A stretch of 33,617 nt of DNA from Armatimonadota bacterium (lineage in GTDB: Bacteria; Armatimonadota; JAAZEB01), in the NCBI GenBank assembly GCA_012512505.1, contig JAAZEB010000263.1, forward strand, positions 1-33,617, read 5' to 3'. Shown here one piece after another: positions 11,910-29,564 of this stretch; position 1 is the stretch's first letter, and every line of letters starts with the position of its first letter. Both the position numbers and the translations under genes were made by a program. The notes beneath the pieces are model-generated. The model saw nothing but the letters and a program-made list of their open reading frames with translations, was not told the origin of the DNA and ran no database searches.

Positions 11910-12116
11910 CAGTGCAGAACCTTTCGCTGCAATAGTTCCCCCGCGTTGGGCCTCTCCCTCTCGCCCGCGGGGGGCAAAACGGGGCAGCCGGTCGCCTGGG
12001 TCGCAAGCAGGTGGCCCAGGCCGCGCACCGCGGGCGGAGAAGCCGACCGCGCGCGGTGGGGCGCCCAAAAACATTATGTTGGGGTGCGCCGGCAGCGCGC
12101 GCCCTATATATTGGGC

Positions 12117-13017: not shown

Positions 13018-13054
13018 CGCGCACCCACGTGCCCCCCGATCCCAAGCAATGGGT

Positions 13055-15811
13055 TTACTTGGCGGACATCCAGTCGGGGCCGGTGCCGGCATCGGCCTTG
13101 ATGGGCACCCGCAGGGTCATTGCCCGCTCCATCTCCTCGCGCACGAGGGTGGCGAGTTGGTGCTGTTCGGCGGCCGGCGCCTCCAGCACCAGCTCGTCGT
13201 GGATCTGCAGCAGCAGCTTCAGCGGCAGGTGCTCGCGCTCGATGCGGCGCTGCAGGTTCACCATCGCCACCTTGATCAGGTCAGCCGCGCTGCCCTGCAC
13301 CACCGAGTTGATTGCCAGACGCTCGCCCAGGCTGCGCTGGTTGGCGTTGGGCGAGCGCAGCTCAGGGATGGCCCGCCGCCGCCCCAGGAGCGTGGTGACG
13401 TAGCCGTGGTCCACGGCGTGCTGAACGCACTGCGCCAGGAAGCGGTCGATGCCGGGAAAGCGGCGCTTGTAGTCGGCGATGAGCTGGGCGGCGGCGGCCA
13501 CGTCGAGGCCCTCAATCCGGCGGGCGAGGCCGAACGGCGTGACGCCATAGATGATGCCGAAGTTGATCGTCTTCGCCTGGTTGCGCTGCTCGCGGGTCAC
13601 TTGATCGGCCGGTGTGCCGAAGACCTGCGCGGCCACGGCGGCGTGGATATCGAGGTCGCGGGCGAAGGCGTCGAGGAGCGCGGCGTCCTCGCTCAGGTGG
13701 GCCAGCAAGCGCAGCTCGATCTGGGAGTAATCGGCGGAGATGAGCACCTGGCCGGGAGGCGCCACAAACGCCTTGCGGATCTGGCGGCCGATCTCGGTGC
13801 GCACCGGGATGTTCTGCAGGTTGGGGCCCTGGGAGGCCAGCCGGCCGGTGGCGGTAACGAGTTGATGGAAGGTGGTGTGGATCCGACCGGTGCGGGGGTC
13901 GATGGCATCGCGCAGGTTGCCCAGGTAGGTGCCGATCAGCTTGGCGAGTTGGCGGTATTCGATGAGCAGCCGCGGCACGCTGGTGCGGGGATCGCGGCGG
14001 TCCTCCAGCGCCGCCAGCCGCTCCAGCACCTCGATGTCGGTGGAGCGGCCGGTCTTGGTGCGCTTGCTCGAGGGAAAGCCGAGGCGGTCGAAAAGAACCG
14101 TGGCCAACTGCTTAGGGGAGTCGAGGTGGAACTCGCACTCGCAGAGAGCGTAGATCTCGCGGCGCAGTTCGGCCACCCGGCCCTCCAGCACTGCTCCCTG
14201 GCGCTGCAGCTCCTCCGGGTCGCAGCAGATGCCGTTGGCCTCCATCTCGGCGAGGACCACGGCGAGGGGGGCCTCCACGTCGCGCAAGAGCGTGCCCATC
14301 CCCACCGCGTCGAGCCGGGGGAGAAGCGCCTGGGCCAGGCGCAGGGCGATATCCGCATCCTCAGCGGCGTAGGGAACCACCGCGGCCAGGGGCACCGTGT
14401 CGATGGCTGCCTGCTCTGGCCCCTCCCCGATCAGGTCGGTGAGCGGGATCATCCGGTGGCCGAGCACGTCCAGGGCCAGGTCCTCCAGCTTGTGGCTGGG
14501 GCGCTCCGGGGCGAGCAGGGTGCTGGCGAGCATCGTGTCGCAGATGGCGCCGCCGAGCCGCACGCCGTAGCGCCGCAGCACGCCCGCGTCGAACTTCAGG
14601 TTGTGGCCGCACTTGGGCACGCGGGCATCTTCCAGCACCGGCCCCAGCACGGCCAGCACCGCCGCGGTATCGAGGTGACGCTCTGGCTCCGGCGAGCGCG
14701 TCGGCACGTAAACGCCCTGGCCCGGCTGCCAGGAGAAGCTGAGCCCGCACAGCGCCGCGTCGCGCTCCAGCCCGGTTGTCTCGGTATCGAGGCTCAACAG
14801 CGGCTGGGCGCGAAGCATGGCGGCCAGCGCCTCCAGCTCGGCCAGGGTGGTGATCGCCCGATACTCCACGGGCCCGGTGACGGCCACGGGCACCCCGGCG
14901 ACCGGCAGGGACGAGCCGTTGGCCGCATCGGGCCGGCCCTGGGAGAGGCGCCGCACCTCTTCGCGGAAGCGGTTGAAGCCGAGTTCATCAAAAAGGGAGA
15001 ACACCTGCTCGGCTGGGAGGGGGCGCACGCGCGCCGTCTCCAGGGCGAACGGCACGTCGGCGTCACGCTTGAGGGTGACGAGCGTGCGCGCGAGGGGCAG
15101 CGTTTCCCGTGCCTGGAGCAAGTTCTCGCGGCGCTTGCCGGGGATCTGGTCGATGGCGGCGTAGATCCCCTCCAGGGAGCCGAACCGCTGGAGGAGCTGC
15201 GCGGCGGTCTTGGGGCCGATCCCTGGCACCCCGGGAATGTTGTCCACGCTGTCACCGGTCAGCGCCAGCAGATCCACCACCTGCTCCGGGGCGATCCCTT
15301 TGGTCTCCCGCAGTGCCGCCACGTCGAGGGTGGTCTCCGTGTGGATGTCGAAGAGCGCCACGCGCTCGCAGAGGAGCTGCTCCAGGTCCTTGTCTTTGGA
15401 GACGAGGCGGATCTGCACGTCGGCGTGGGCAGGGTCGTCCAGCACGCGTTGGGTGAGGGTCGCGATCACATCATCGGCCTCCACGCCTGGGCAAGAGATC
15501 ACCGGGATGCCGAAGCGTTGCACCAGTTCGAGGACGCGTGGGATCTGCGCGCAAAGGTCGTCGGGGGCGGGAGCGCGGTTGGCCTTGTAGTCGGGGTACA
15601 GCTCCTCGCGGAACGTTTTGCCCGGGGCATCGACCACCACCGCGAGATAGTCCGGCCGCTGCTGGGAGAGCAGCTTGAGGAGCATGGCGGTGAAGCCGAA
15701 CACGGCGTGCGTGGGCTCGCCGGTCACCGGGCTATGCATCCCGCCACGGATGGCATAGTAGGCGCGGAAGATCTGTGCGTGTCCGTCGATGAGGTAAAGC
15801 GTTTCGGGCAT
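13055..15811 (-). CDS. polA: DNA polymerase I, three-domain
   Basis: This 918-aa protein is full-length Pol I, used in Okazaki-fragment processing and repair. The 5' nuclease domain (1-290) has LIDGHAQIFRAYYA, the DYKANR motif (74-79), GVEADDVI and VPGIGPKTA. The 3'-5' proofreading domain (about 315-500) keeps its catalytic acids: LDTETTG (Asp342, Glu344), NLKFDAG (Asp408) and YAAEDAD (Tyr481, Asp485). Proofreading should therefore be active, unlike in many Pol I enzymes that lost these residues. The polymerase domain has DYSQIELR (motif A), KTINFGIIYG (motif B) and QIHDELVLE (motif C). AGAGGA lies 5 nt before the ATG. The gene is divergent from the enolase-superfamily gene at 16091 across 279 bp. 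Confidence 0.98.
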   Translation of the reverse strand: MPETLYLIDGHAQIFRAYYAIRGGMHSPVTGEPTHAVFGFTAMLLKLLSQQRPDYLAVVVDAPGKTFREELYPDYKANRAPAPDDLCAQIPRVLELVQRFGIPVISCPGVEADDVIATLTQRVLDDPAHADVQIRLVSKDKDLEQLLCERVALFDIHTETTLDVAALRETKGIAPEQVVDLLALTGDSVDNIPGVPGIGPKTAAQLLQRFGSLEGIYAAIDQIPGKRRENLLQARETLPLARTLVTLKRDADVPFALETARVRPLPAEQVFSLFDELGFNRFREEVRRLSQGRPDAANGSSLPVAGVPVAVTGPVEYRAITTLAELEALAAMLRAQPLLSLDTETTGLERDAALCGLSFSWQPGQGVYVPTRSPEPERHLDTAAVLAVLGPVLEDARVPKCGHNLKFDAGVLRRYGVRLGGAICDTMLASTLLAPERPSHKLEDLALDVLGHRMIPLTDLIGEGPEQAAIDTVPLAAVVPYAAEDADIALRLAQALLPRLDAVGMGTLLRDVEAPLAVVLAEMEANGICCDPEELQRQGAVLEGRVAELRREIYALCECEFHLDSPKQLATVLFDRLGFPSSKRTKTGRSTDIEVLERLAALEDRRDPRTSVPRLLIEYRQLAKLIGTYLGNLRDAIDPRTGRIHTTFHQLVTATGRLASQGPNLQNIPVRTEIGRQIRKAFVAPPGQVLISADYSQIELRLLAHLSEDAALLDAFARDLDIHAAVAAQVFGTPADQVTREQRNQAKTINFGIIYGVTPFGLARRIEGLDVAAAAQLIADYKRRFPGIDRFLAQCVQHAVDHGYVTTLLGRRRAIPELRSPNANQRSLGERLAINSVVQGSAADLIKVAMVNLQRRIEREHLPLKLLLQIHDELVLEAPAAEQHQLATLVREEMERAMTLRVPIKADAGTGPDWMSAK

Positions 15812-16007
15812 GAGTTTCCTCTGAATTCAGGATGGGCGGCCGATGGATCAGGGTTCCCGCCTCGGCCAGGCGATCCCTGCCGCCAGGCCGGGAGGGAAAG
15901 CGTTCCGGGGCGGCGAACAGCCTCGCAGCACCGCCCGCATTCATCGCGCGTGCGCTGCCGGCACGTCGCCCGGCGCATGCGTCGTCCGGGTGCGCGTGTC
16001 GCCCGGG

Positions 16008-16050
16008 CCATCCTTTACGGCCATTCAGAACGCCATTCTTCACGGCCATC
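16008..16050. repeat. Two 18-bp direct repeats in a divergent promoter region
   Basis: CCATCCTTTACGGCCATT (16008-16025) and CCATTCTTCACGGCCATC (16033-16050) match at 15 of 18 positions and are spaced 25 bp start to start. They lie 41 bp before the start of the enolase-superfamily gene. The placement would suit an operator for a sugar-responsive regulator, but no regulator gene is adjacent. I see no clear -10/-35 pair in this 279-bp region. Confidence 0.35.
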
Positions 16051-16090
16051 CGGGCCATCGTGGGCGATGCCATCCCAGAGGGAAACAGCA

Positions 16091-17494
16091 ATGACCAGCA
16101 AACCGACCGATATCCAGCCGATTCACGCGACGCTGTACTTCCTGCCCGTGGCTATGCGGGTGCCGCTGAAGTTCGGCGCGGAGACGCTGACCCAGGCCAC
16201 CTGCGCGCGCGTGCGCCTGCAGGTGCAAGACCGCGCCGGCCGAACGGCCGAAGGCTGGGGCGAAACCCCCCTCAGCGTCGCTTGGGTGTGGCCGAGCACC
16301 CTCTCTTTTGACGCCCGCGAGAGCGCCCTGCAGGCGTTCTGCACGGTGCTGGCGCGCGCCTGGGCCGGCTTCACGGCGGCCGGCCACCCGCTGGAGGTGG
16401 GGCACACCTTCCAGGAGAGCGTGCTGCCGAAGCTGCTGGAGGAGTTCAACCAGCAGCGCGAGGGGGCCGAGCCGATGCCCTGGCTGGCCGCGCTCGTCTG
16501 CTGCTCCGCCTTCGATATCGCCTTGCACGACGCCTACGGCGCGCTGCTGGGCCGCCCGATCTACGACACCTACACCGCCGAGTTCATGAACGCCGACCTC
16601 GCCCATTACCTCCGGCCGGCCGAGGGGATGCCGGTCTGCTTTGCCGGTCGTTACCCCGCCGATTACCTGGTGTTCCCACGCCCAAGCCGGCTGCCCGCCT
16701 GGCACCTGGTGGGCGGCAAAGACTGGATCGATCCCGCCGAGTGCGACGGCACGGAGCCAGAGGATGGCTACCCGGTGCTGCTGCGCGACTGGATCCGGCG
16801 CGACGGCCTGAAGTGCCTGAAGGTGAAGCTGCGCGGCAACGATGCCGCCTGGGACTACGACCGCCTGGTGCGCATCGGCCAGATCGCCATCGAGGAAGGC
16901 GTCGACTGGCTTACCGCCGACTTCAACTGCACCGTCACCGATCCCGCCTACGTCAACGAGATCCTCGACCGCCTGGTGTGGGAGAACCCGCGCATCTACG
17001 GGATGATCCTCTATGTGGAGCAGCCATTCCCCTACGACCTGGAGATGCACCAGATCCACGTCCACAGCGTCTCCGCGCGCAAGCCGCTCTTCATGGATGA
17101 GAGCGCGCACGATTGGCACCTGGTGAAACTGGGTCACTCTCTCGGATGGAGTGGCGTGGCGCTGAAGACGTGCAAGACGCAGACGGGCGCGCTCCTCAGC
17201 CTCTGCTGGGCGAAGGCGCACGGCATGACGTTGATGGTGCAAGACCTGACCAACCCGATGCTGGCGCAGATCCCCCACTGCCTGCTGGCTGCCCACGCCG
17301 GCACCATCATGGGCGTGGAGACCAACGCGATGCAGTTCTACCCCGATGCCTCGCTGCCGGAGGCGGCCGTTCACCCGGGCCTCTACACCCGCCGCCAGGG
17401 CTGCGTCGATCTTTCCACGCTCGCCGGCCCCGGCTTCGGCTACCGCCTGGGCGACATCCGCCGTGAACTGCCCGCGCCGGTGGGGGAATGGTAA
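16091..17494 (+). CDS. Mandelate racemase / muconate lactonizing enzyme-like (enolase superfamily)
   Basis: This 467-aa enolase-superfamily enzyme abstracts a proton next to a carboxylate; most relatives dehydrate or racemise sugar acids. The N-terminal capping domain covers about residues 8-160. The barrel shows KCLKVKL (Lys244/Lys246), TADFN (metal ligand Asp277), YVEQPF (Glu310), FMDES (Asp336/Glu337) and ALKTCKTQTG (Lys359). The two Lys positions suit catalytic bases of an MLE-type enzyme. It is longer than the usual 350-400 aa because of roughly 60 extra residues between cap and barrel (about 168-235), rich in aromatic residues. GAGGGAAA precedes the ATG. It is followed 97 nt later by a dehydrogenase gene, so a two-step sugar or sugar-acid pathway is likely. 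Exact substrate unknown. Confidence 0.9.
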   Translation: MTSKPTDIQPIHATLYFLPVAMRVPLKFGAETLTQATCARVRLQVQDRAGRTAEGWGETPLSVAWVWPSTLSFDARESALQAFCTVLARAWAGFTAAGHPLEVGHTFQESVLPKLLEEFNQQREGAEPMPWLAALVCCSAFDIALHDAYGALLGRPIYDTYTAEFMNADLAHYLRPAEGMPVCFAGRYPADYLVFPRPSRLPAWHLVGGKDWIDPAECDGTEPEDGYPVLLRDWIRRDGLKCLKVKLRGNDAAWDYDRLVRIGQIAIEEGVDWLTADFNCTVTDPAYVNEILDRLVWENPRIYGMILYVEQPFPYDLEMHQIHVHSVSARKPLFMDESAHDWHLVKLGHSLGWSGVALKTCKTQTGALLSLCWAKAHGMTLMVQDLTNPMLAQIPHCLLAAHAGTIMGVETNAMQFYPDASLPEAAVHPGLYTRRQGCVDLSTLAGPGFGYRLGDIRRELPAPVGEW

Positions 17495-18620: not shown

Positions 18621-20363
18621 TCAGGCAGCCTTGCGCGTGCCGATCACCCGGCGAAGGTCGCCGACGGCGCGGCGGAGACGAGCCGGGCGGAACAGGAAGG
18701 CCAGGTACCGCCAGGGGGAGCCGCGCAGCGGACGGATTGTCGCGATCGCCGTCGGGCCGGGTAGGAAGGTTTGCTGGATGCGGCGTAGCCGCCAGCGGAA
18801 GGGCAGGAAGGGGAATTGGCGCCCGAGAACTGCCAGGCGGTTTCCCACGAGGCCAGGACGGGGGATCGGGCTGCCCGTGCCTGCCCGGCGTCGCTCGAGC
18901 GTGGGGGCATCGGGGCAGAGCGCGGCGATCACCGTTTCCGGCACCGGCGCCTGAAGATACTCCCGCACCCACCACAGCGTGTGCCCCACCACGAGGCTTG
19001 CCCTGGCCGCCCGTGCGCGCGCGATCACCAGGTCCCAGTCCACCGCGTGCTGCTTCGTCAGCTCCGCCACGTCGCAGAAGCCATGCAGGCTCAGCGCGCC
19101 GTGCTGGAAGAAGTGCAGGGCCAGGTAGACCAGGTTGTCCTCCACCGCCAGGATGTGCGCGGGCGCGCCGGCAATCGTCACCTGCCGCGACCGTTGCCAC
19201 ATCGCGGCAACATCGAGCTGGAACGGGCGGTGCGGCCCGGCGAGGCACCAGTGGGCCTCAACCGGACTGGCCGCCTGGGGATGCGTGAAGCTCAAGTGGT
19301 GACCAACGCGCTCCTGCGGTGCGCGCGTGGCTGGATCGGCTTGGCGGGGGCTGTAGCCCAGGCTGGTGAGCAGCGCCTCGACGCGGGGGAGCTGCCCCGG
19401 AGGCGCCAGCACGTCCAGATCCGACATCGGGCGCAGGCCAAAGCTCCCGTAGACCAGCTCGGCGAGCGCGGCACCCTTCAGGACAACCAGCGGCTGGCCG
19501 GCTTCGGCCGCTGCCATCAGCAGAGAGCGCAGTTGGCCGCGCAACCGGAGGCCACGCAGGGCGGCGGCGTGGGCAAAGCGCTGAAGAACGGCTCGCTGCG
19601 GCTCCGGCACGGCCTGCCTGAGACCCTGCTCCTGGAGGTGGTGGTACAACAGCGGTCCAAGGCCCTGGTCACACGCGACCCGGAGAACGGCGGACCAGTC
19701 GACCCGCCCGGTGACGAGGGCGGCAAACGCCTCCCGCTCGTCCGCCGGGAGCCGAACCCGCGCGGCCAGCAGCAGCAGGCGGGCCTCGGCGGTAAGCTCC
19801 GGCCGGGCAGCGGAGACAGGGTGGCAGCCTGCCCAGAGGCGGAGGAAGGCGCGCAGAGGGAGAGCGGCCGCTATTCTCCCGGCCCGGCGCAGAACCCGAG
19901 CCGGGATGCGTTTGCTTCGCCGCAGGCCGCGGGGCGCCAGCCGCCCCAAGGCACCGTAGAACAGTGACTGCCAGCGTGAGAGCACGGCTGCCCCCACGGC
20001 CAGCCAGGCGGAGCCGCGGCCGTCCAGCCGCACGACGCGACCGCCACGGTGGATGGCGACAACCCTGGCGATCACCTGGTTGGAGAGGATCGGGGCATCA
20101 CAGGCGCGAGCGCGGTCGCCCTTCGTGATCAGTTGGCGCGGGGCATCCGGGCGGCCCCGATGCATTGCCACGATGCGGTGGGCGATGCTGACGCCGCCAG
20201 CCCGGAACACCACCACGTCGCCGAGGCGCAGCGCGCGCGGGAGCAGCTCCACTTCGAGGCGATCCCCCGGCTGGAGCAGGGGCATCATGCTGCCGCCGGT
20301 GACCGGAAGCGTGGCGGCGGGCTCTGCCCCGGTGTCCGGCGCGGGGGGTGCCTGCAACTCCAT
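18621..20363 (-). CDS. Fusion: S24/S26 peptidase + NTP_transf_5 nucleotidyltransferase
   Basis: This 580-aa protein joins two domains. Residues 18-105 are an S24/S26 (SipW-like) peptidase: GGSMMPLLQPGD gives nucleophile Ser25, SIAHRIV gives His62 in place of the usual Lys, and LITKGD (78-83) with Asp89 follows. There is no N-terminal membrane anchor. Residues about 190-560 look like the NTP_transf_5 family: VLKGAALAELVYG (294-306) and RPMSDLDVL (311-319), with metal-binding-type Asp315 and Asp317. A basic linker (about 140-165) separates them. Both domains are often encoded as separate neighbours near PqqD and HprK-like genes. The frame opens to 20561, but that part overlaps the pseudopilin gene; ATG 20363 leaves a 37-nt gap. 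The Shine-Dalgarno is weak. Possible roles are leader removal plus nucleotidyl transfer to the peptide; this is inference. Confidence 0.82.
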   Translation of the reverse strand: MELQAPPAPDTGAEPAATLPVTGGSMMPLLQPGDRLEVELLPRALRLGDVVVFRAGGVSIAHRIVAMHRGRPDAPRQLITKGDRARACDAPILSNQVIARVVAIHRGGRVVRLDGRGSAWLAVGAAVLSRWQSLFYGALGRLAPRGLRRSKRIPARVLRRAGRIAAALPLRAFLRLWAGCHPVSAARPELTAEARLLLLAARVRLPADEREAFAALVTGRVDWSAVLRVACDQGLGPLLYHHLQEQGLRQAVPEPQRAVLQRFAHAAALRGLRLRGQLRSLLMAAAEAGQPLVVLKGAALAELVYGSFGLRPMSDLDVLAPPGQLPRVEALLTSLGYSPRQADPATRAPQERVGHHLSFTHPQAASPVEAHWCLAGPHRPFQLDVAAMWQRSRQVTIAGAPAHILAVEDNLVYLALHFFQHGALSLHGFCDVAELTKQHAVDWDLVIARARAARASLVVGHTLWWVREYLQAPVPETVIAALCPDAPTLERRRAGTGSPIPRPGLVGNRLAVLGRQFPFLPFRWRLRRIQQTFLPGPTAIATIRPLRGSPWRYLAFLFRPARLRRAVGDLRRVIGTRKAA

Positions 20364-20400: not shown

Positions 20401-21066
20401 TCAGTAGATGCGAACGTGCGTTGCGGTGTAGTAGCCGTCGGCCCGCACCGTCCGCACGTGCCCGTCGGCGAAGAGCAGGTTGGCATTCCGACGGTGCCAG
20501 GCAGCGGCATCCACAAACACGTTGATCTCGGCTGGTCGCGGCAGCGACGGCACCGAGACATGACTGAGCGCCAGCTCCGTGCGGTAGATGTAGCTGGTGC
20601 CGAAGCTCTCGAACACCGAGGTGCAGTTGGGCGTATAGCGCCACCCGATGTCGCCGGGGCAGTGCCACACGCGCGGCTCGCCGGACAGGTAAGGGAGCAG
20701 CACCTGGTCGATGTTGGTGTTGGTCGGGTGTGCCGCGATCAGGCGCAGCACCTGCTCGTGGTACGACTCACCGGTCCACGGGTTGTAAGCGTTGCGCCAC
20801 TGGTTAGGGTTCAGGCGGTCAGTGGGATCCAGCCCATAGGGAAAGAGGCAGTCGTAGTCCTCGTGGTAGAGCTGGATCGCCTGCCCAAGCTGGCGCAGGT
20901 TGGAGGTGCAGGTGGCCTGCCGGGCGCTGTGCCGGGCGGAGGCCAGCACCGGCAGCAGCATCGCCGCCAGTAGGCTGAGGATGGCCACCACCACCAGCAG
21001 CTCGATCAGTGTAAACCCTGCTCGGCCGCTGCCACTCCCCTTGGCCCAGCCAGTCCGTGCCCTCAT
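20401..21066 (-). CDS. Type IV pseudopilin-like protein with H-X9-DG motif
   Basis: This 221-aa protein starts with a prepilin leader and a GFTLIELLVVVAILSLLAAM segment (residues 17-36), cleaved before Phe by prepilin peptidase. Near the C-terminus is HRRNANLLFADG, an exact H-X9-DG motif. This is the DUF1559-type architecture abundant in Planctomycetes, Armatimonadota and Lentisphaerae, where many paralogs per genome are usual. The globular part has conserved-looking QLGQAIQLYHEDYD, and a WHCPGD segment typical of the family. The start at ATG 21066 is set by the prepilin motif; GGAG lies 14 nt upstream. It follows the small peptide gene by 74 nt on the same strand. The paralogs' functions are mostly unknown; it probably sits in the inner membrane facing outward. 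Confidence 0.92.
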   Translation of the reverse strand: MRARTGWAKGSGSGRAGFTLIELLVVVAILSLLAAMLLPVLASARHSARQATCTSNLRQLGQAIQLYHEDYDCLFPYGLDPTDRLNPNQWRNAYNPWTGESYHEQVLRLIAAHPTNTNIDQVLLPYLSGEPRVWHCPGDIGWRYTPNCTSVFESFGTSYIYRTELALSHVSVPSLPRPAEINVFVDAAAWHRRNANLLFADGHVRTVRADGYYTATHVRIY

Positions 21067-21140: not shown

Positions 21141-21341
21141 CTAGAGTTGCTCTAGCATCTCCAGAACATCCGTGTCCATCGTGTCGAAGCTGAACCCTGT
21201 CCAGCACGCCCGGACCGGCCCCAGCCGCTGCAGCAGTTCTTCCTCCGAGTAGAGGATGACCTGCGGTGGGGTATAAGGCAACCGTTCCTCCACCGGCTCC
21301 GCCGTGGGGGTATTGGCACTGGGGTGTCTGTTGTCTGTCAT
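21141..21341 (-). CDS. Candidate RiPP precursor peptide (66 aa)
   Basis: This is a 66-residue peptide with a strong Shine-Dalgarno (AAGGAG, 7 nt before the ATG), so translation is likely. Residues 1-20 are polar and probably unstructured. Then comes YTPPQVILYSEEELLQRLGP (23-42), which has the look of a RiPP recognition sequence: a Pro-containing beta strand that could add to a PqqD-like fold, followed by an acidic helix. The C-terminal part, RACWTGFSFDTMDTDVLEML, has a single Cys (46), aromatic residues and several Asp/Thr. There is no GG cleavage motif and no signal peptide. It lies 54 nt after the C25 peptidase gene and upstream of the pseudopilin and peptidase/nucleotidyltransferase genes. 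That it is the substrate of the radical SAM enzyme about 6.5 kb upstream in the same run of genes is inference. Confidence 0.7.
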   Translation of the reverse strand: MTDNRHPSANTPTAEPVEERLPYTPPQVILYSEEELLQRLGPVRACWTGFSFDTMDTDVLEMLEQL

Positions 21342-21395: not shown

Positions 21396-23642
21396 TCATT
21401 CCGATTGGGTGCCCGGCTGGCTGGCGTTGCCCGCGGCGGCGGGCCAGCGCAGGCGAAGCGCGGGATCGCCCAGCAAGACGTAGGTCTCTACTGGATCCCA
21501 GCGCTCCCAGCTCCGTGAGGTGATGAAGACCCGCCGCGCCTCGCGGAAGGCGACGCCGATCGGGGTTTCCCGGTGCTCCAGCAGGTAGGGCACCAGTTCC
21601 CGCGCTAGGTCGAGCCCGCCCATCCGCGATGGCGAGATGCAGGCAATGGCCCCACCCTGGGCCGAGAGCAGCAGGCTTTCGGCCAGGCAGTGTGTGCCCG
21701 GGGTGTCTGGCCGGTCGAACCACCCGGTGAAGCAGGTGATATCGATGCACAGCGGCGGCAGGGCAGACGCCGGTGCCTTCTGCAGGTCGCGCGCTTCCAG
21801 CACCTTTTGCCCCGCCCAGTAGCGGTCGCCGCCGTGCCCATGGTAGACCAGCAGAACACCCCCCTCCTTCAAAAAGCGCTGCACCCGGGGGGTGAACGTT
21901 TGGCGAACCAATCGCGTGCGCTCGTTATTGGGCAGCTTGGGGTCTACCGTCCGCAGCGCCAGGACTTCTGCTTCCACCTGCGCCTGGCGGCACTGCTCGG
22001 CCAGGCGTTCGATGCTGCGCTCGAAAAGACCCACCGTCGTGTTGTTGGTCTCGTGGTCGGCCACCAGGAGGGCACGCGCCGGGCCCGCCGGGGGTTCGCC
22101 CTGCTCGTAGCGCAGGATCTTGGCGACCACGGCGGCCGTCTCCTCCGGGGTGCGCACCGGCAGCCGTCCCACCGCCAGCTCTGGCTGGTGGTCGTCATCC
22201 ACGCAGCCGAAGTACCAGTCGGTCGCCGGGGGGATGTTGCCCGAGACCGGCGCCAGGTAGGAGGGCACCAGGTTGGGCACGCCCGTCTTCCGATAGTCGC
22301 GGTAATCGTAGTTGGCGTCGCCCACCAGCAGCAGGAAGCCGGGCGCCGGCTTTTGCCACCGCTGGGAGGCATAGCGCACGAAGGTCCGGATGGCCGCCGG
22401 GGTAAACACCCCCTCGCCGAACTCGTCGTAGATCTCGCTGACGGGGGCCACGTAGACGCGCATCCCCTGCTGACGGCGCCACTCCAGCAGCGGCTGCAGT
22501 GCCGGGATCAGCGCGTCCGCCGCAACCACCAGGTAATCGGCCCCCAGCGCGGGGTCGCGCAGCCCGGAAGGCTCGTCTTTCCGCACCCAGAGGGGGGAGT
22601 ATGGTTCGCGGCTGGCCAGGATGCGGCGTCCGGCCCCGGGCGCGAGCAGGGTCAGCGCCTGCTGCCGTGTCACCCCTGTCAGGCGCACTGGCGCGAGCGG
22701 CTGGCTGACATCCAGCAGGATCGGCTGGGGTCCGAGGCCGGCGATGGCGTAGGTCGCCTGCCGGTTTGCCCCTTTTGGGGTGCGGAGTTCGAGCTGGCTT
22801 CCGGTCAGCGTCAGTTGACGCGGGTAGGTGAGCTCCACCCAGTCCAGGAAGACCTGGTCTACCTCGCCGGCAGCGGTGTCTCCCGGGCACTCAATGGCAA
22901 GGGTGTTCTGCCCCGCCCGGATCGCACCCGCCGGGAGGTCTGCGGTGATGCGGTGCTCTACCTGGCCGTCCCAGGTGGCGTCCTCCAGCAGCCGTCCATT
23001 CCAGAACACACGGGTGTGGTGGTCTGGGTTGGCGGTGAAGGAGAGCGTGTTGCCAAACAGCGAGACCACCAAGCGGCCGGCCGCGTTGGCGGCGGGCTGC
23101 GGTGGTGTGATGGTGAACTCCTGGCGCTGCTTGGCGGGGACCAGGCGCCAGAACCAGTGTGGCACCTTTTCCGGTTGGGCGGCATAGAACAGCTTGCCGT
23201 AGGTGCGGTTCTCCTCGAAGCGGACGGTGGTCGACACGGCGCGCGCCGCACGGCCGTTCCCTTTGGGGGGAGCGGCCGTGCGAGAGGCAATGCGCCGACC
23301 TGGCGGACCCCCGTAGGCCAGCCAGTAGACGTTTGTGTCGGTGTACTCGGTATCCAGGCCCTCGCCATAGAAGAGGAGCGCGTCGCCAGGATCAAAGCGT
23401 CCGTCGGCCGCTCCCGTCACCAGGAGGGCCACCGGACGCCCGCCGCAGCCAGCGCGGATCGTGCGCGGGTTGACCTTCGCCAGCGGCAGGCCCGCCGCCG
23501 CCAGCTCGGCGCCCGTTACCCGGTAAAGCCCGGTGCGGTTCACCCCGATCTTCCAGTGGCCGTCGGCGTGCGCGCCGGCCGCGGACAGCAGCAGCCCTAC
23601 TGCTCCGACGATCCATCCGGTTCGCGTTGCCATTCTGGTCAC
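21396..23642 (-). CDS. Secreted C25 (gingipain-like) cysteine peptidase
   Basis: This 748-aa exported protein has a signal peptide (GWIVGAVGLLLSAAGAHA, about residues 9-26). A beta-rich N-terminal region includes a carbohydrate-binding-like sandwich (about 140-270). The caspase-like C25 peptidase domain covers about 365-740. The catalytic pair is His603 in VYHGHGGDRYW and Cys637 in CIDITCFTGW; their 34-residue spacing matches gingipains. The end, VLLGDPALRLRW, is typical of the family. There is no type IX secretion C-terminal domain, so export is probably by Sec alone. I chose GTG 23642 because AGGAG lies 5 nt upstream; ATG 23633 is the alternative. The gene lies directly upstream of the precursor-like peptide and could process that or surface proteins. 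Confidence 0.9.
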   Translation of the reverse strand: MTRMATRTGWIVGAVGLLLSAAGAHADGHWKIGVNRTGLYRVTGAELAAAGLPLAKVNPRTIRAGCGGRPVALLVTGAADGRFDPGDALLFYGEGLDTEYTDTNVYWLAYGGPPGRRIASRTAAPPKGNGRAARAVSTTVRFEENRTYGKLFYAAQPEKVPHWFWRLVPAKQRQEFTITPPQPAANAAGRLVVSLFGNTLSFTANPDHHTRVFWNGRLLEDATWDGQVEHRITADLPAGAIRAGQNTLAIECPGDTAAGEVDQVFLDWVELTYPRQLTLTGSQLELRTPKGANRQATYAIAGLGPQPILLDVSQPLAPVRLTGVTRQQALTLLAPGAGRRILASREPYSPLWVRKDEPSGLRDPALGADYLVVAADALIPALQPLLEWRRQQGMRVYVAPVSEIYDEFGEGVFTPAAIRTFVRYASQRWQKPAPGFLLLVGDANYDYRDYRKTGVPNLVPSYLAPVSGNIPPATDWYFGCVDDDHQPELAVGRLPVRTPEETAAVVAKILRYEQGEPPAGPARALLVADHETNNTTVGLFERSIERLAEQCRQAQVEAEVLALRTVDPKLPNNERTRLVRQTFTPRVQRFLKEGGVLLVYHGHGGDRYWAGQKVLEARDLQKAPASALPPLCIDITCFTGWFDRPDTPGTHCLAESLLLSAQGGAIACISPSRMGGLDLARELVPYLLEHRETPIGVAFREARRVFITSRSWERWDPVETYVLLGDPALRLRWPAAAGNASQPGTQSE

Positions 23643-23647
23643 GTCTA

Positions 23648-23995
23648 CTCCTGCTTCCTGGTTGCTTGGGTTACTTCCCGCGTTTCCCCCGGGAACTGGC
23701 GGCCGGTGCCGAGACAGAGACCGGCGCCAGGCGCTGCACCCGGCCCGAGGTGTGCCGCACTTCCAGGCAGTAATACTGCCCTGCCCGGCCCCGCGCGCCG
23801 CCGTCCACAAAGCGGCAGGTACGCGACCCGGGGGGAATCAGCCGGGGGGTGACCCGGGTGAACGGACCCTCCAGGCGGGCCGCGCGCAGCACATGGTAGC
23901 CGGCGACATCGCTGCCTTCCTCGGGCGTCCACTCGACGGTTACCTTGCCGGAGGGCGCCCGGGTGGCACGCAGACGCCCCACCGCGGCCGCCAGG
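23648..23995. repeat. Direct repeat, copy 1 (348 bp)
   Basis: This segment aligns without gaps to 25382-25729 (offset 1734 bp). I count about 15 mismatches over 348 positions. It covers the last 108 codons of one IPT/FN3 gene plus the following spacer. The upstream parts of the two genes are far more divergent. Confidence 0.93.
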
Positions 23996-24957
23996 GGTTC
24001 CCCAACGGCGAAGGCGTTCTTCAGTTCGCCCGAGTCATTCGTGCCCGGGTAATCGACGACGATGTTGTAGATGCCCTCCGTTTTGCCTAGGAGGTCAAAC
24101 GTGCCGGTGATCTGGGTGTTGTCCGGCGACACGGTGACGTTGGTGGCAGTGATCTTGGAAGACTCGTCCCCCTCCAGATACATGTGCAGGGTTGCGCCCT
24201 CGTAGAAGTGGGCGCCGGTCACGGTGACATCCTGCGGTCCGGTGTTCGGGGCGGCCTGGGGAACCACTTTCTCGATCTGAGGCCGGAACACCAAGCGTAC
24301 GACCGGTTGCAGGTTGGTTCCCTCTGGCCCGGGCCAGCCCCCGCCTTCCTCCATGACAGTGGCATAGAGGGTCCGCTCCGTGCCCAGGCCTGAGGCCGCG
24401 CAGGTGGCTGCGGGTGTGCTAGTGGTGTTGTTCTCCAAGGCGAACCCGATCAGCAGGTTTCTCACACCATCATACGTGAACGGCGTGGTGAAGTCGAAGC
24501 GGAGCCAGCCCGTTTGGCTCACGGATATATTCCCTGAGTAGACCAGCGGCCATGGATCCCCTGTATCATCATCTGGCCAGATGGGCACATTCATCTCCGT
24601 ATGGTCCATCTGTATCTCAAACTGCCCGCTCAATGGCGCCGGGAGTTCGGTCACGTTCAGCTCCAGGGCGACGATCTCGCCCCCCCTGCCGATCTCATTC
24701 TGGAGATAGACAGACAGGGTGCGGGCTGCGGAAACCGCCGTGTTGAGGGGGTACTCCCAAGTTGTCGGGGTACCGCTTTCGCCGATCACCTTCCCTTGCG
24801 CGGCGGCGGGGCGAGTGCCAGCGCAGAGGAGGGCGCCCAGGGCCAGGAGCAGGATCCCGGTCAGGCGGCGGCCAGGCGCGCGGCGCGCCACGGGAGCGCA
24901 CCGGAGGAATGCGCGTCCGGCGGGCCGGACGCAACCTTGTGGCAGGAACAGGTGCAT
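23671..24957 (-). CDS. Secreted IPT/TIG + FN3 domain protein (copy A)
   Basis: This 428-aa exported protein has a long basic N-terminal region with a hydrophobic core (GILLLALGALLCAG, 34-47) and a likely cleavage site near AAAQ (51-54). A jelly-roll-like domain follows (about 58-225, with GWLRFDFTTPFTYDG). An IPT/TIG immunoglobulin-like domain covers about 228-318, and an FN3-like domain about 323-415, ending in a basic tail (SSRGKRGK). Such proteins usually mediate surface binding or adhesion. AAGGAGGT lies 7 nt before ATG 24957, which fixes the start. It is a paralog of the gene at 25405, with which it shares its ribosome site, first residues (MHLFL) and an almost identical C-terminal block (321-428). 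The C25 peptidase gene follows after 28 nt. Confidence 0.85.
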   Translation of the reverse strand: MHLFLPQGCVRPAGRAFLRCAPVARRAPGRRLTGILLLALGALLCAGTRPAAAQGKVIGESGTPTTWEYPLNTAVSAARTLSVYLQNEIGRGGEIVALELNVTELPAPLSGQFEIQMDHTEMNVPIWPDDDTGDPWPLVYSGNISVSQTGWLRFDFTTPFTYDGVRNLLIGFALENNTTSTPAATCAASGLGTERTLYATVMEEGGGWPGPEGTNLQPVVRLVFRPQIEKVVPQAAPNTGPQDVTVTGAHFYEGATLHMYLEGDESSKITATNVTVSPDNTQITGTFDLLGKTEGIYNIVVDYPGTNDSGELKNAFAVGEPLAAAVGRLRATRAPSGKVTVEWTPEEGSDVAGYHVLRAARLEGPFTRVTPRLIPPGSRTCRFVDGGARGRAGQYYCLEVRHTSGRVQRLAPVSVSAPAASSRGKRGK

Positions 24958-25039
24958 CGGTGGAACCTCCTTCTTCACTCGCCACTGCCGGCAGAGCGCA
25001 AGCGCCGCGCGCCGGCAGCGGCCGGTACCATTGCGGTGC

Positions 25040-25390
25040 CCGGCAGGTAGACCCGGCCTTCGAGGGTGGCCGGGCTCCTTCCCACCCGGCTGGCCCCCGC
25101 CGGGAGCATCGCGCGGACGCGGTGCCTCCCCCGGCCGTTCCTGGTAGCGTCCTTCCACTGCCAACCGTTGGCGAGCCCGCGGGGATGGTGATCCAGGCTC
25201 GCGGCAAAGGGGAGTGTGCTGCCGCGAAGCAAGACCACCGGGCGGTCGGCCGTGTTGGCGACTAGCTTCGGCAACAAGCGAGCGGACTCCTCGCGCTCCT
25301 TGTGCATGCACCAATAACAGAATCGACCGGGTCTCCGTTCCGGTTGGGTGCCGCCGCGGGTCGCGGACCGGGTTACGCCTGCTCCTGCTT
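25040..25390 (-). pseudogene. Decayed remnant of a second C25 peptidase gene
   Basis: The 447-nt space between the two IPT/FN3 genes holds a relic of the C25 gene. Just after the stop at 25405, the sequence matches the C25 start region, including the AGGAG site, but the GTG start is GTA (25374-25376) and the ATG position reads TCC. After a deletion of roughly 170 codons, a second segment (about 25074-25259) encodes ANTADRPVVLLRGSTLPF, DHH, DAT and LPAGA. It aligns to C25 residues about 185-245 (ANAAGRLVVSLFGNTLSF, DHH, DAT, LPAGA). The catalytic domain is absent. A 149-codon open frame (24975-25424) crosses the relic but is not expected to be translated as such. Confidence 0.8.
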
Positions 25391-25729
25391 CCTGGTTGCT
25401 TGGGCTACTTTCTGCGTTTCCCACGGGAACTGGCGGCCGGTGCCGAGACAGAGACCGGCGCCAGACGCTGCACCCGGCCCGAGGTGTGCCGCACCTCCAG
25501 GCAGTAGTACTGCCCCGCCCGGCCCCGCGCGCCGCCGTCCACTAAGCGGCAGGTACGCGACCCGGGGGGAATCAGCCGGGGGGTGACCCGGGGGAACGGA
25601 CCCTCCAGGCGGGCCGCGCGCAGCACATGGTAGCCGGCGACATCGCTGCCTTCCTCGGGCGTCCACTCGACGGTCACCTTGCCGGAGGGCGCCCGGGTGG
25701 CACGTAGGCGCCCCACTGCGGCCGCCAGA
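25382..25729. repeat. Direct repeat, copy 2 (348 bp)
   Basis: Partner of the segment at 23648-23995, aligned without gaps. Weaker similarity continues past its low-coordinate end into the decayed C25 start. This shows that the original duplication covered both the IPT/FN3 and the C25 gene. Confidence 0.93.
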
Positions 25730-26706
25730 GGCACGCCCCCGTCCTCCACAACGAGCCGACCGGGTTGCTCATCCGAAAGGCCGTCCGGATTGGTGATGAG
25801 CACCCCGTAGAATCCCAGCGGTGCTCCGGTGAGGTTGAAGGTGCCGGTGATCTGGTGATCTTCCGTCACGGAGACGTTGGTGGCGGTGATCCGGCCCTCC
25901 GGCCGCGTCAGCTTCAGGGTGGCGCCCGCGTGGATGTGGGTGCCGGATACCGTAATCGTCGCCGGCGCGTCGTTCTTCACGGTGGCTGGGCTGGCGCCAC
26001 CCACGTGAGGCCCGACTAGCAGCCGCACGTTCGGTCGTTCATCAGCGGGACCAGGCGCTGGGAGGGGGTTCCCTGACACCACGACTTGGGACGTGAGGGA
26101 GCGTGTCTCTTCTGTTGTTGATGGAAGGGACGACCGGCACAGACCAGCGAGCACGCGCTGCAGGCTGGAGAGACTGAACTCCACCAGCAGGTTGCGGGTG
26201 CCGTCGTAGGCAAACGGCTCATCGAACACGAATCGGCGCCAGCCTGTCGTGCCGGCTGGCTCACTCTCTCGGTAGTAGACTTGCACCCAATCCCCATCCA
26301 TCCAGGGGCGCGGCTTCCCCCCTCCCGGGTCAGGTGGAACGATAGATTGCTCGGTATGCGCCATTCGGATCGTCCAGTGATCGAGCGCTCGGGATGGCGC
26401 CCGGGACACATCCAGGTCCAGGGCGAGGATGCTCCCGCGAGTGCCGACCTCTGTCGCCAGGTAGATGGTCTGGCAGCGAGCCGCGAACGCTTGGGTGTTG
26501 AGGGGGAAAGCCCATGGCGACTCGCCGGTACCAATCGACTGCTCGTGGGCGCTGGCGGGTGGGGCGCCGGCGCCGAGGAGGGTGAGCAAGGCCAGGGGCA
26601 GTGCCCCGGCATGCCGGTAGTCTGGCGCGCGGCGTGCGTGGTGGGCACACCGGCGGAGGGCGCGTCCGGCAAGCCGGACGCGGGCGGGCAGCAGGAACAG
26701 GTGCAT
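25405..26706 (-). CDS. Secreted IPT/TIG + FN3 domain protein (copy B)
   Basis: This 433-aa paralog of the protein at 23671 has the same order: basic N-terminal region, hydrophobic signal core (ALPLALLTLLGAGAPPASA), jelly-roll-like domain (GWRRFVFDEPFAYDG), IPT/TIG domain (TVKNDAPATITVSGTH onward) and FN3-like C-terminal domain with a basic tail (SSRGKRRK). GGGAGG precedes the ATG. Jelly-roll and IPT parts are clearly divergent from copy A, while the last 108 residues differ at only three positions. It lies 75 nt downstream of the HprK-like gene on the same strand. Divergent outer domains on a common base would suit different binding targets; that is inference. Confidence 0.85.
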   Translation of the reverse strand: MHLFLLPARVRLAGRALRRCAHHARRAPDYRHAGALPLALLTLLGAGAPPASAHEQSIGTGESPWAFPLNTQAFAARCQTIYLATEVGTRGSILALDLDVSRAPSRALDHWTIRMAHTEQSIVPPDPGGGKPRPWMDGDWVQVYYRESEPAGTTGWRRFVFDEPFAYDGTRNLLVEFSLSSLQRVLAGLCRSSLPSTTEETRSLTSQVVVSGNPLPAPGPADERPNVRLLVGPHVGGASPATVKNDAPATITVSGTHIHAGATLKLTRPEGRITATNVSVTEDHQITGTFNLTGAPLGFYGVLITNPDGLSDEQPGRLVVEDGGVPLAAAVGRLRATRAPSGKVTVEWTPEEGSDVAGYHVLRAARLEGPFPRVTPRLIPPGSRTCRLVDGGARGRAGQYYCLEVRHTSGRVQRLAPVSVSAPAASSRGKRRK

Positions 26707-26781: not shown

Positions 26782-27867
26782 TCAGTACTCGGAAGGCAGG
26801 GTGGTGCCGCGGCCGCGGCAAAGCGAGTCCACCAGCGCGACGGTAGCGGCCAGTGGCCCGGGCCGCAGGCTTATGGGCACCGTGTCCTGCAGAACTGCTC
26901 CTAGCTCCTTGAGAAAGGGGAATAACCCCCCTTGCGGGGTGTTGCCGCCGGGCCGGTTCAGGGCGGCGGCGGCGAGCGACAGCCAGGCGGCCGACGGCGC
27001 TATTGCCTCGGCGCGTGGCGGCGCCTCAAAGCTGGGCCGCGCGGTCGGCGCAGTGTCGGTGCCCAGCAGCAAGACGTTCTCCTGCTGGCACGCCTGCGCC
27101 CAACGCCGCAGCGGCCCAGGTGAGAGAACTCGCTCCCAGGAGAGCGTCACGAATCCCTCGCTGGCGGCTACCCGAGCCCCGGCCAACTCGGGGTCGGTGG
27201 CGAGCCTCCGCGTGAGGGCCGGGGTCAGGTGGCTCACGGCCACGCGGCTCGGCTCGGTCTGTGCACTGGTCGGCAAGATGAACACGTGCCGAATCGGCAC
27301 CTTCAAGTGCGCGATCTCCGGCTGCCAGCAGAAGCGCGTCTCCTCCCCCGCGAGCGACCAGGGCTGAGACCGCTCCCGCAGCTCCGGCAGCAGGCACAGC
27401 GTCTGTGGGCGGATGAGCACCCCCCGGGGGAACGACTCCAGGAGGCCGGTGGTCCGGTCGATCGCGGCCACCTCATCCGACAGCCACTGGTAGCCCTGTC
27501 GCGAGAGGGCCAGCGCCAGGGTAGTCTTGCCGGCGCCGCTCTCGCCCACGATCAGCACGCCGCCATGCGGGCCGGCCAACGCCGCCGCGTGCAGCAGCCA
27601 GTGGGTGCTGACGCGAGTCACGATCTCGGTGAAGATCAACTCCTCCGCCAGCGTCTCTCCTGCCCCCGGCGCGGCCAGTTGGCGGGTGCTGCCGCAGCTG
27701 ATGGCGCGCACGCCCGCCGCCGCCGAGACCTGCAGCCGCAGCGGTGCCGCGGCCGATACCGGCACCAGCGCCGGCCGGTAAAGATACGCGAGCGCCTCCC
27801 ACAGCCGGTCGCTGTCGCACTCAACCACCGCCTCGGAATCGAGAAATCGCAGACCAAGGGAGGGCAC
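26782..27867 (-). CDS. HprK-like P-loop kinase of a PqqD/radical SAM cluster
   Basis: This 361-aa protein resembles the HPr-kinase C-terminal (HprK-related) family. The Walker A motif is GESGAGKTT (108-116) after LLHAAAL, and LSDEVAAID (129-137) follows as in HprK/P. The N-terminal 80 residues are divergent and do not look like the classical HprK N-domain. Such HprK-related proteins sit next to PqqD-like and NTP_transf_5 genes in HPr-rel-A-type systems and are related to kinases that phosphorylate RiPP precursors. Its substrate here is unknown; the 66-aa peptide is a candidate. GTG 27867 starts 4 nt after the radical SAM gene stop, with GGGAG about 10 nt upstream, so the two are translationally linked. 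The frame stays open to 28044, but this overlaps the radical SAM gene. Confidence 0.82.
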   Translation of the reverse strand: MPSLGLRFLDSEAVVECDSDRLWEALAYLYRPALVPVSAAAPLRLQVSAAAGVRAISCGSTRQLAAPGAGETLAEELIFTEIVTRVSTHWLLHAAALAGPHGGVLIVGESGAGKTTLALALSRQGYQWLSDEVAAIDRTTGLLESFPRGVLIRPQTLCLLPELRERSQPWSLAGEETRFCWQPEIAHLKVPIRHVFILPTSAQTEPSRVAVSHLTPALTRRLATDPELAGARVAASEGFVTLSWERVLSPGPLRRWAQACQQENVLLLGTDTAPTARPSFEAPPRAEAIAPSAAWLSLAAAALNRPGGNTPQGGLFPFLKELGAVLQDTVPISLRPGPLAATVALVDSLCRGRGTTLPSEY

Positions 27868-27871
27868 GGCG

Positions 27872-29242
27872 TCAGGACTCCCTCGCCACCGGCGACGCCT
27901 GCCGGCGCTCCTCGGCCCAGCCGAACAACGTCTGCGCGTAGTACTCCCGGCGGACGGCGCAGAGGTCATCGTGCTGCCACCAGTCTGCCTGGTGCAGCCA
28001 GGCCAGGCCGGGGCAGGACGCGCGACAGTAGCGGCGCCACTCACAGGCCCGGCATTCGGCGATGCGCTCTACTCGGGCGGGCACCAGCGCCCGCAGTTGC
28101 CGGGCCGCCGGCGAGGCGAGCGCCGCCGCCAACCCCTCGGCCTCCGTGTTGCCGAGGCGGTAGCGGGCATCCGCCAACAGGATGCAGGGGTAAACGCTGC
28201 CATCCACATCGATGAGCGCGCACTCCCCGGCTTCCAGCGGGCAGGTGGTCTCCCGGGGATCGCCACAGCCCGCCACGACGATCCGCTCGTGGTGCGCGCG
28301 CAGCAGCGGGCGCAGGGCGCGCACCAGGGCCACGCGCTCCTCGGCGAAAGTTGAGAGTTGCTCCCAGTTTCCGACCGCGCAGCCGCGGGGCGCCAGCCAG
28401 ATCAGGTAGAGGCGGCCGACCCCGAGGGTGAACGCCTGCTGGGCCAGCGTGCTGATATGCGCCAGGTTGTGGCGGTTGACGCAGGTGCTCCACGTCATGC
28501 GCGGCACAACGCCGCGATCCAGCAGGCGCTGGATTCCCGCCATCGTTCGGGCGTAGGCGCCCGGCCCCCTCAAGGCGTCGTGGGTCTCCGCGTCTGGTCC
28601 ATCCAGGCTCACCTGAACATGCACCCCGGCGTCGGCGAGGAAGTCGGCCGCTTCCTCACTGACCAGGGTGCCGTTGGTCACCACCGTCACCTCAAACCGC
28701 GCGGTGGCCGCGCTCACGATCGAGCGCCACTGCGGGTGGGTGAGGATCTCGCCGCCCGTCAGGACGACCGACACGGCCCCCGCGGCCTGACACTGGTCGA
28801 GGCGTGCCTGGAGGACGGGGAAGGGAACCGGCCGCCCTTGCAGCACCCCTTCGGAGGCGGGCGACTGGAAGCAGTGCCGGCAGGTGAGGTTGCAGCCGGC
28901 GGTGGTGTGAAGGGTGACGCGCAGCCGGACGGCGGTCTCCTCGCGCGGGCGGCACTCCGGCGCGGGGGTGGGCCGCTCGTCCAGCAGCAAGCCGGCCCGC
29001 TGCAGTTGCTGGAGGTAGCGGGAGACATCTTGCTCCGCGCGCTGCACCGTCACGGCATAGCGCCGGGCCAGGTCGCGCGCCAGATCACGCCAGCTCACCT
29101 CCCCGGTGCAGCTTTGGGCCAGGCGGCAGCCGAGCGCATCGACCACGCACCAGGTGCCCCGGGCCGGGCTGAGGAGCAGAAAGAGGTCTCCCTGCTGCTG
29201 GATGGTGGTATCAGGCAGCAAGCGCGGGTGTTCAGGGAGCAT
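27872..29242 (-). CDS. Radical SAM/SPASM peptide maturase with N-terminal PqqD-like domain
   Basis: This 456-aa protein begins with a PqqD-like winged-helix domain (about 1-90, ending LLLDE), used in RiPP systems to bind leader peptides. The radical SAM domain has CNLTCRHC (Cys117, 121, 124) for the 4Fe-4S cluster, LTGGE (161-165) and VSLDG. The C-terminal SPASM region binds auxiliary clusters through Cys334, 341, 353, 397, 400, 406, 410 and 428 (CALIDVDGSVYPC, CRACEWRRYCRASC). This architecture is typical of enzymes such as PqqE and sactionine or ranthipeptide synthases. GGAGGAGG lies 8 nt before ATG 29242. It overlaps the end of the small PqqD gene by 11 nt, which implies translational coupling. 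The modification made is unknown. Confidence 0.92.
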   Translation of the reverse strand: MLPEHPRLLPDTTIQQQGDLFLLLSPARGTWCVVDALGCRLAQSCTGEVSWRDLARDLARRYAVTVQRAEQDVSRYLQQLQRAGLLLDERPTPAPECRPREETAVRLRVTLHTTAGCNLTCRHCFQSPASEGVLQGRPVPFPVLQARLDQCQAAGAVSVVLTGGEILTHPQWRSIVSAATARFEVTVVTNGTLVSEEAADFLADAGVHVQVSLDGPDAETHDALRGPGAYARTMAGIQRLLDRGVVPRMTWSTCVNRHNLAHISTLAQQAFTLGVGRLYLIWLAPRGCAVGNWEQLSTFAEERVALVRALRPLLRAHHERIVVAGCGDPRETTCPLEAGECALIDVDGSVYPCILLADARYRLGNTEAEGLAAALASPAARQLRALVPARVERIAECRACEWRRYCRASCPGLAWLHQADWWQHDDLCAVRREYYAQTLFGWAEERRQASPVARES

Positions 29243-29564
29243 TGGGGGGCCCTCCTCCAGGGCCGCCATCAACCAGGAGACCGGCCGCGTGGAGGCTGGC
29301 GACCGTTGCGGCCACCTGCGCCTCGATGTGCGGCTCCGCCGCGGTGTCGAAGCGGGCGCGCACGGCGGCGCTGATGTCGGCCACGCTCCGCGTGCCATCG
29401 CACTGCTGCCAGATGAAGTGGGCCGTGCGATTGAGGACCCCTACCTGACCGCTGGTCTGGTGGTAAAGGAGAACTTCGTGGCCGAGTGACTGTTCCTGGA
29501 CGGTGGATTCCCGCAGGGGAAGGGATGGCGAAGTTGGGTTCTTGGGCATCGGCGTCATGTCCAT
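29232..29564 (-). CDS. Stand-alone PqqD-like RiPP recognition protein
   Basis: This protein of about 110 aa is PqqD-like over residues 30-97: HEVLLYHQTSGQVGVLNRTA, then FIWQQCDGTRSVADISAAV and a helix ending AAGLLVDG. Such proteins bind precursor leader peptides and present them to the maturase. The first 20 residues are Pro/Met-rich and look disordered; the last ten are Gly/Pro-rich. The start is unclear: ATG 29564, 29558 and 29549 and GTG 29576 are all possible, and none has a good Shine-Dalgarno. It is the first gene of the 11-kb - strand block, and the next gene begins inside its last codons. It resembles the PqqD_rel_X type of HPr-rel-A systems. Confidence 0.82.
   Translation of the reverse strand: MDMTPMPKNPTSPSLPLRESTVQEQSLGHEVLLYHQTSGQVGVLNRTAHFIWQQCDGTRSVADISAAVRARFDTAAEPHIEAQVAATVASLHAAGLLVDGGPGGGPPNAP

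Follow-up and report, generated by a model that had tools for sequence, protein, structure and literature searches.

The window analysed here is the whole 33,617-nt contig JAAZEB010000263.1 of an Armatimonadota bacterium. On its minus strand it carries a single open frame without interruption, encoding a protein in which a peptidase domain is followed by a nucleotidyltransferase (NTP) domain, and upstream of this frame lie the genes listed in Table 1. The gene order radical SAM, HprK-like kinase, C25 peptidase, small peptide, pilin-like protein, peptidase, NTP domain is common to three loci, the window and its two closest cluster relatives (L024 and L025). The kinase of the window scores far under the NCBIfam equivalog cut-offs and has the HprK-type P-loop region. 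The scanned window ORFs include no recognisable exporter, MsbA-like or other, and the contig ends where the window ends. Elsewhere in the window, a DNA polymerase III alpha gene with an intein (Intein_splicing and LAGLIDADG_3 matches) occupies 6951-12074 on the minus strand, and a 1481-aa frame at 13049-17494 on the plus strand has no Pfam match at E 0.001.

Table 1. Features of the fusion gene and its neighbourhood (positions in the window)
Feature	Position	Strand	Basis
Fusion protein, 580 aa	18621..20363	-	ORF, profile matches, AlphaFold2 model
PF14907 nucleotidyltransferase domain, about residues 190-490	18894..19796	-	Profile, model, conservation
Linker, about residues 113-189: helix, then disorder (pLDDT <50 at 136-190)	19797..20027	-	AlphaFold2 model
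SipW/archaeal signal-peptidase-like domain, about residues 10-112	20028..20336	-	Profile, conservation, fold
His62 codon	20178-20180	-	Predicted catalytic His
Ser25 codon	20289-20291	-	Predicted catalytic Ser
Pilin-like DUF1559 protein, between precursor and fusion; present in L024 and L025 too	20401..21066	-	Profiles
66-aa putative RiPP precursor, leader YTPPQV...LGPVRAC	21141..21341	-	ORF, homologue alignment
C25 (gingipain/PorU-like) peptidase; start codon uncertain	21396..23810	-	Profiles
Putative exported protein, weak TIG/fn3 matches	23671..25314	-	Profiles
Second putative exported protein, C-terminal part similar to the protein at 23671..25314	25405..26706	-	Profiles
HprK-like kinase; start uncertain, frame overlaps radical-SAM gene	26782..28044	-	Profiles
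PqqD (RRE) domain fused to radical-SAM/SPASM enzyme; PqqD at about 28985-29179	27872..29398	-	Profiles

An earlier note on this DNA had described the frame as a fusion of a Ser-His S24/S26 peptidase to an NTP_transf_5 domain, and the fusion of the two in one chain is real, as the uninterrupted frame, the domain matches and a two-domain model agree. The AlphaFold2 model (alignment of 99 rows; mean pLDDT 78) has two confident domains, both mostly at about 90 or higher, one with a signal-peptidase/LexA fold and the other with a nucleotidyltransferase fold, joined by a disordered linker. In a profile search of both halves, the C-terminal one was recognised far over the cut-off, PF14907 (NTP_transf_5) matching residues 221-470 with E 1.4e-57 and 195.5 bits against 31.2, while the peptidase half stayed below it in single profiles. 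Six residues of the NTP domain (Lys296, Gly297, Arg311, Asp315, Asp317 and Asp431) are each invariant in 75 of 75 aligned domains; Asp315 and Asp317 form the acidic pair of the SDLD motif, and the Lys-Gly pair and Asp431 are also intact. By Foldseek and VIA-align, residues 267-481 fall with nucleotidyltransferases of the ANT(2'')-Ia, LnuA and MenT types (8an5_A against the model of this half: Z 15.4, rmsd 3.3, 182 aligned).

The N-terminal half matched TIGR02228 (signal peptidase I, archaeal type; NCBIfam) with E 3.4e-11 and 43.3 bits against a cut-off of 51.85, and the Pfam S24 (E 0.0042) and S26 (E 0.012) matches were both weak and below cut-off. Since the profiles fall below threshold, the identity of this half is settled by its best sequence match among solved structures, SEC11A, by the signal-peptidase/LexA fold and by residue conservation. 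Residues 13-112 fall with signal peptidases and LexA in Foldseek and VIA-align (1b12_B against the model: Z 10.5, rmsd 2.1, 94 aligned). The label "S24" is loose, the domain being of the SipW/archaeal signal-peptidase branch. Alignment of 26 peptidase domains shows Ser25 in 25 of them and both His62 and Asp83 in all 26, so conservation and fold match together place a Ser-His catalytic pair in a signal-peptidase fold; like the SDLD pair, it is intact as the earlier note had stated. The one exception at Ser25 is the peptidase copy at L118 12221-12652, where Cys replaces the catalytic Ser. Asp89 is Asp in 12 of the 26 and aligns with an Asp of the SEC11A motif KGDNNAVDD, and either Asp83 or Asp89 may be the catalytic Asp. 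An N-terminal membrane anchor is a usual trait of archaeal or SipW-type signal peptidase I. The window protein had been said to lack one, and hydropathy bears this out: no membrane segment was found at the N-terminus, the highest 19-residue mean starting in residues 1-30 being 0.69.

Two genes upstream of the fusion, and preceded by AAGGAG, is a 66-aa ORF with homologues in L024 and L025 that share the leader YxPPxV..YS..ELL..GP.RAC and diverge in their tails. A conserved leader with a variable tail is the usual pattern of RiPP precursors, and this peptide is the likely substrate of the fusion. L135, a short contig lacking the other enzymes, has a more distant peptide of the window type after a C25 gene; a search of other loci with the leader pattern matched only the window, L024, L025 and L052 (the L024 contig). 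Four genomes with weak peptide-profile matches (E 0.0015-0.0044) were set aside, of which L049 was read and held nothing convincing. A second precursor family, Y.KP.[IV]...L..EEAVL..C, comprises 15 peptides from 13 loci, each of which also has the peptidase, and sits between the radical-SAM and kinase genes (for example L056 7683-7853, L085 7741-7905 and L103 7572-7742). Fourteen of the 15 end in Ser, mostly Gly-Ser, an ending partly built in by a profile seeded from 10 peptides and present in 3 of 5 cases in five fresh loci; L122 (E 0.019, without the Ser end) was excluded from the 15. NCBIfam models gave no match to nine precursors of this family. The window peptide has no Ser end, and at the aligned position following AC it carries Thr, the relatives Ser.

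How widely peptidase and NTP domain travel together was surveyed by scanning GTDB contigs with NTP-domain patterns, which gave 97 relatives, 80 of them kept. Twenty-six of these 80 loci also hold the peptidase, in about 14 phyla including archaea (Methanophagales and Methanoperedens), many loci being metagenome-assembled contigs that are incomplete or possibly misbinned. In the full set of non-duplicate NTP loci (L024 and L035 left out as copies of L052 and L113), the peptidase was found in 34 of 101, a figure biased by regions picked partly because both domains had already been seen, so that 26 of 80 is the fairer one. The peptidase was not seen in the other 67, and the NTP domain is thus not dependent on it. 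HprK-like kinase, PqqD, radical SAM and C25 genes were found in 30, 29, 25 and 7 of the 34 peptidase loci, against 34, 33, 12 and 2 of the 67 without peptidase; radical SAM is enriched in the former (Fisher p 6e-8). C25 (gingipain/PorU-like) peptidases recur near the cassettes, with L025, L052, L090, L094, L100, L118 and L135 as named cases. Among the best 20 TIGR02228 places listed in a phylum search, inspection by eye put 8 at no more than 5 kb from a PF14907 place that was also listed. Searching plasmids with the L056 peptidase yielded no match.

In 18 of the 34 peptidase loci both domains are encoded on one strand, with the peptidase gene upstream and no more than 1.5 kb from the NTP domain. 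The peptidase stands alone in 25 and is joined to a GNAT domain in 5, to the NTP domain in 2, to PqqD in 1 (L040) and to a ScmC/HprK-like protein in 1 (L066), the last two being fusions to other parts of the same pathway. Peptidase-GNAT acetyltransferase fusions (L030, L084, L085, L089, L103 and L141) suggest acetylation as an extra tailoring step. Eight further Armatimonadota regions, partly picked because earlier matches lay close together, held five sets of PqqD, radical SAM, peptide, kinase, peptidase and NTP genes, one of them with a peptidase-GNAT fusion (L141). The link between peptidase and nucleotidyltransferase that the earlier note drew from one fusion is thus supported more broadly, by adjacent genes, ATGA overlaps, two fusions and the 26 of 80 loci.

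Among published systems, the nearest is the pathway for linear polyphosphorylated peptide (LPP) RiPPs in Bacillota, with LppA, LppK, LppB, LppS, LppD and LppN (Popov et al. 2026, PMC13381572). According to that paper, LppS is a SipW-like leader peptidase that cleaves only with the RRE LppB present and loses cleavage with each of S29A, H68A and D93A, LppK phosphorylates Ser3 of LppA and does not accept Thr, and LppN is an NTP transferase whose deletion had no visible effect in a heterologous host. Its authors describe peptidase, RRE, kinase, NTP transferase and transporter as co-occurring and LPP as limited to Bacillota, so the pairing of peptidase and NTP transferase is not itself new, LppS and LppN being co-encoded in published LPP clusters. 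The window shares with LPP the SipW-like Ser-His(-Asp) peptidase, the HprK-like kinase, an RRE and an NTP transferase, and the YTPPQV start of its peptide agrees with the LPP leader YxxPxV. However, it differs from the full motif YxxPxVLxHQxIxFETxxS beyond that point, has the separate peptidase and NTP transferase of LPP in one chain, carries its PqqD/RRE on a radical-SAM/SPASM enzyme where the LPP one is discrete, shows no counterpart of the MsbA-like exporter among the ORFs scanned, adds a C25 peptidase, and comes from Armatimonadota rather than Bacillota. The term "radical SAM" has 0 occurrences in PMC13381572, which makes no mention of such an enzyme. Because the RRE is not discrete, the leader motif is partial, an exporter was not recognised and a radical SAM is added, we do not file the cluster as an LPP member. 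The most fitting reading of its protein, likened by description and family, is a single polypeptide combining LppS and LppN. LppS was modelled to contact LppB through an N-terminal helix (PMC13381572), which has no counterpart in the confident part of our model, so that RRE docking by the window protein probably differs.

Two other systems share parts of the cluster. The paeninodin and pseudomycoidin lasso peptides (PadeK/PsmK, PsmN) likewise combine an HprK-like kinase with an NTP transferase, but their leader peptidase is a transglutaminase-like B2 protein where that of the window is of the signal-peptidase type, and neither a macrolactam synthase (asparagine-synthase-like) nor a B2 peptidase had a Pfam match among the window ORFs scanned. 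In those peptides, as given in a review (PMC9266682), the C-terminal Ser is the kinase site and PsmN attaches hexoses to phospho-Ser. A paeninodin-like lasso cluster was present in L132, an unannotated 2.7 Mb replicon of Paenibacillus cellulosilyticus, with a PF14907 protein, an asparagine-synthase-like protein, a Ser-ending precursor, an HprK-like kinase, PqqD and a transglutaminase-like protein. The SynChlorMet cassette (ScmC, ScmD, ScmE, ScmF) has PqqD-like, HprK-like and radical-SAM/SPASM proteins in common with the window, and in L066 the same peptidase type is fused to a ScmC that scores above cut-off. Membership of the window in this class was rejected, as its radical SAM scores 108.2 against 400 for ScmF and 93.5 against 400 for ScmE and its kinase has no ScmC match.

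Taken together, we read the fusion, with a probability of about 0.68, as a bifunctional RiPP maturation enzyme, equivalent to LppS and LppN, in a radical-SAM, LPP-like cluster. In the proposed order of events, the PqqD/RRE domain on the radical-SAM protein would first bind the 66-aa precursor at its YxPPxV leader, after which the radical-SAM/SPASM enzyme would modify the core. The kinase would then phosphorylate a Ser/Thr of the core, the NTP domain would attach a nucleotidyl or sugar moiety to the new phosphate and the peptidase domain would remove the leader. The fusion would keep cleavage and tailoring side by side on a single peptide bound to the RRE. From the fusion we infer, as had been proposed, that both activities act on one substrate. 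Judged by homology, context and analogy to LPP and pseudomycoidin, the most probable of these steps is removal of the leader by the N-terminal domain; core phosphorylation is reasonably likely, and nucleotidyl or hexosyl transfer onto the phosphate by the C-terminal domain would be an even bet. Signal peptidases favour small residues at -1 and -3, which VRA/C and ARA/C fit, and our guess is that the leader may be cut between Ala45 and Cys46; the third residue of the core would then be Thr or Ser, matching S3 of LppA. Against this maturation reading stand the missing Ser end of the window peptide, the Thr after AC, given that LppK rejects Thr, the lack of effect of LppN in a heterologous host (both from PMC13381572), the exporter not recognised among the ORFs scanned, the absence of a confident LppS-like N-terminal helix and the 67 of 101 NTP loci in which no peptidase was seen.

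Alternatively, the peptidase could be a signal peptidase dedicated to its exported neighbours (the pilin-like, C25 or TIG proteins), in the way that SipW serves biofilm proteins, with the NTP domain modifying these neighbours or a glycan of the cell surface. In favour of this are the signal-peptidase fold and the position of the pilin-like gene, directly upstream in all three same-order clusters, but pilins use their own prepilin peptidase, the protein has no membrane anchor, the same peptidase is fused to PqqD in L040, and C25 was not seen in 27 of the 34 peptidase loci, whereas RRE, kinase and radical SAM were seen in most. We regard this alternative as unlikely.

The earlier note had named a sequencing frameshift between two separate genes as a case against the fusion. 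The halves are indeed separate neighbouring genes in L024 and L025, and in L025, as in L038 and L041, the coordinates show the peptidase stop overlapping the NTP start as ATGA, a 4-base overlap where a small indel could join them. However, the codon signature is continuous, with GC3 at 0.76-0.87 in all five segments of the frame, and the window codon that corresponds to the Met start of the free-standing NTP gene in L024 is not a start codon, the frame being open there. A survey for the same fusion also found a second case in L113 (Armatimonadetes bacterium UBA5419; same contig as L035), where a contig edge cuts the 3' end. In a quick tree of 101 NTP rows, the window protein groups with L052 and L025 (support 99) and L113 with L026 (98). 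Constraining the two fusions to a single group costs 62 log-likelihood units (AU test, p 4.2e-7, on 25 of the 101 rows and for a pair chosen after the tree had been seen). From the separate tree positions and the AU rejection, the peptidase-NTP fusion most likely arose twice independently, and an assembly or sequencing artefact in the window is very improbable. We reject, as scarcely credible, a self-cleaving regulator of the LexA/S24 type in place of a processing enzyme: LexA and signal-peptidase rows ranked equal when folds were compared, but LexA-type enzymes use Lys as second catalytic residue where all 26 aligned domains have His, profile scans of the fusion protein gave no DNA-binding domain, and the neighbourhood is RiPP-like.

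New findings here are the fusion itself, its radical-SAM context, the occurrence in phyla other than Bacillota and a precursor family mostly ending in Ser; neither the peptidase-NTP fusion nor a radical-SAM version of an LPP-like cluster was found in print in the open-access literature. Of greater interest than the fusion alone is the wider radical-SAM group, spread over many phyla. Tentatively, and at somewhat short of even odds, it would be a large and so far unnamed RiPP group across bacteria and archaea, with a radical-SAM/SPASM step, a kinase that places phosphate on Ser, often C-terminal, PF14907 transfer onto that phosphate and RRE-guided, signal-peptidase-like leader removal, the peptidase fusions (to NTP, RRE, kinase and acetyltransferase domains) forming a physical assembly line in which cleavage and tailoring are coupled. 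The window offers a protein with two activities, a published and characterised relative of its peptidase and a candidate substrate two genes upstream, and with the leader peptidase fused and that substrate nearby the chemistry of PF14907 becomes directly testable. The results suggest that RiPP pathways far outside Bacillota, archaea included, widely use leader peptidases of the signal-peptidase type, combined there with radical-SAM chemistry.
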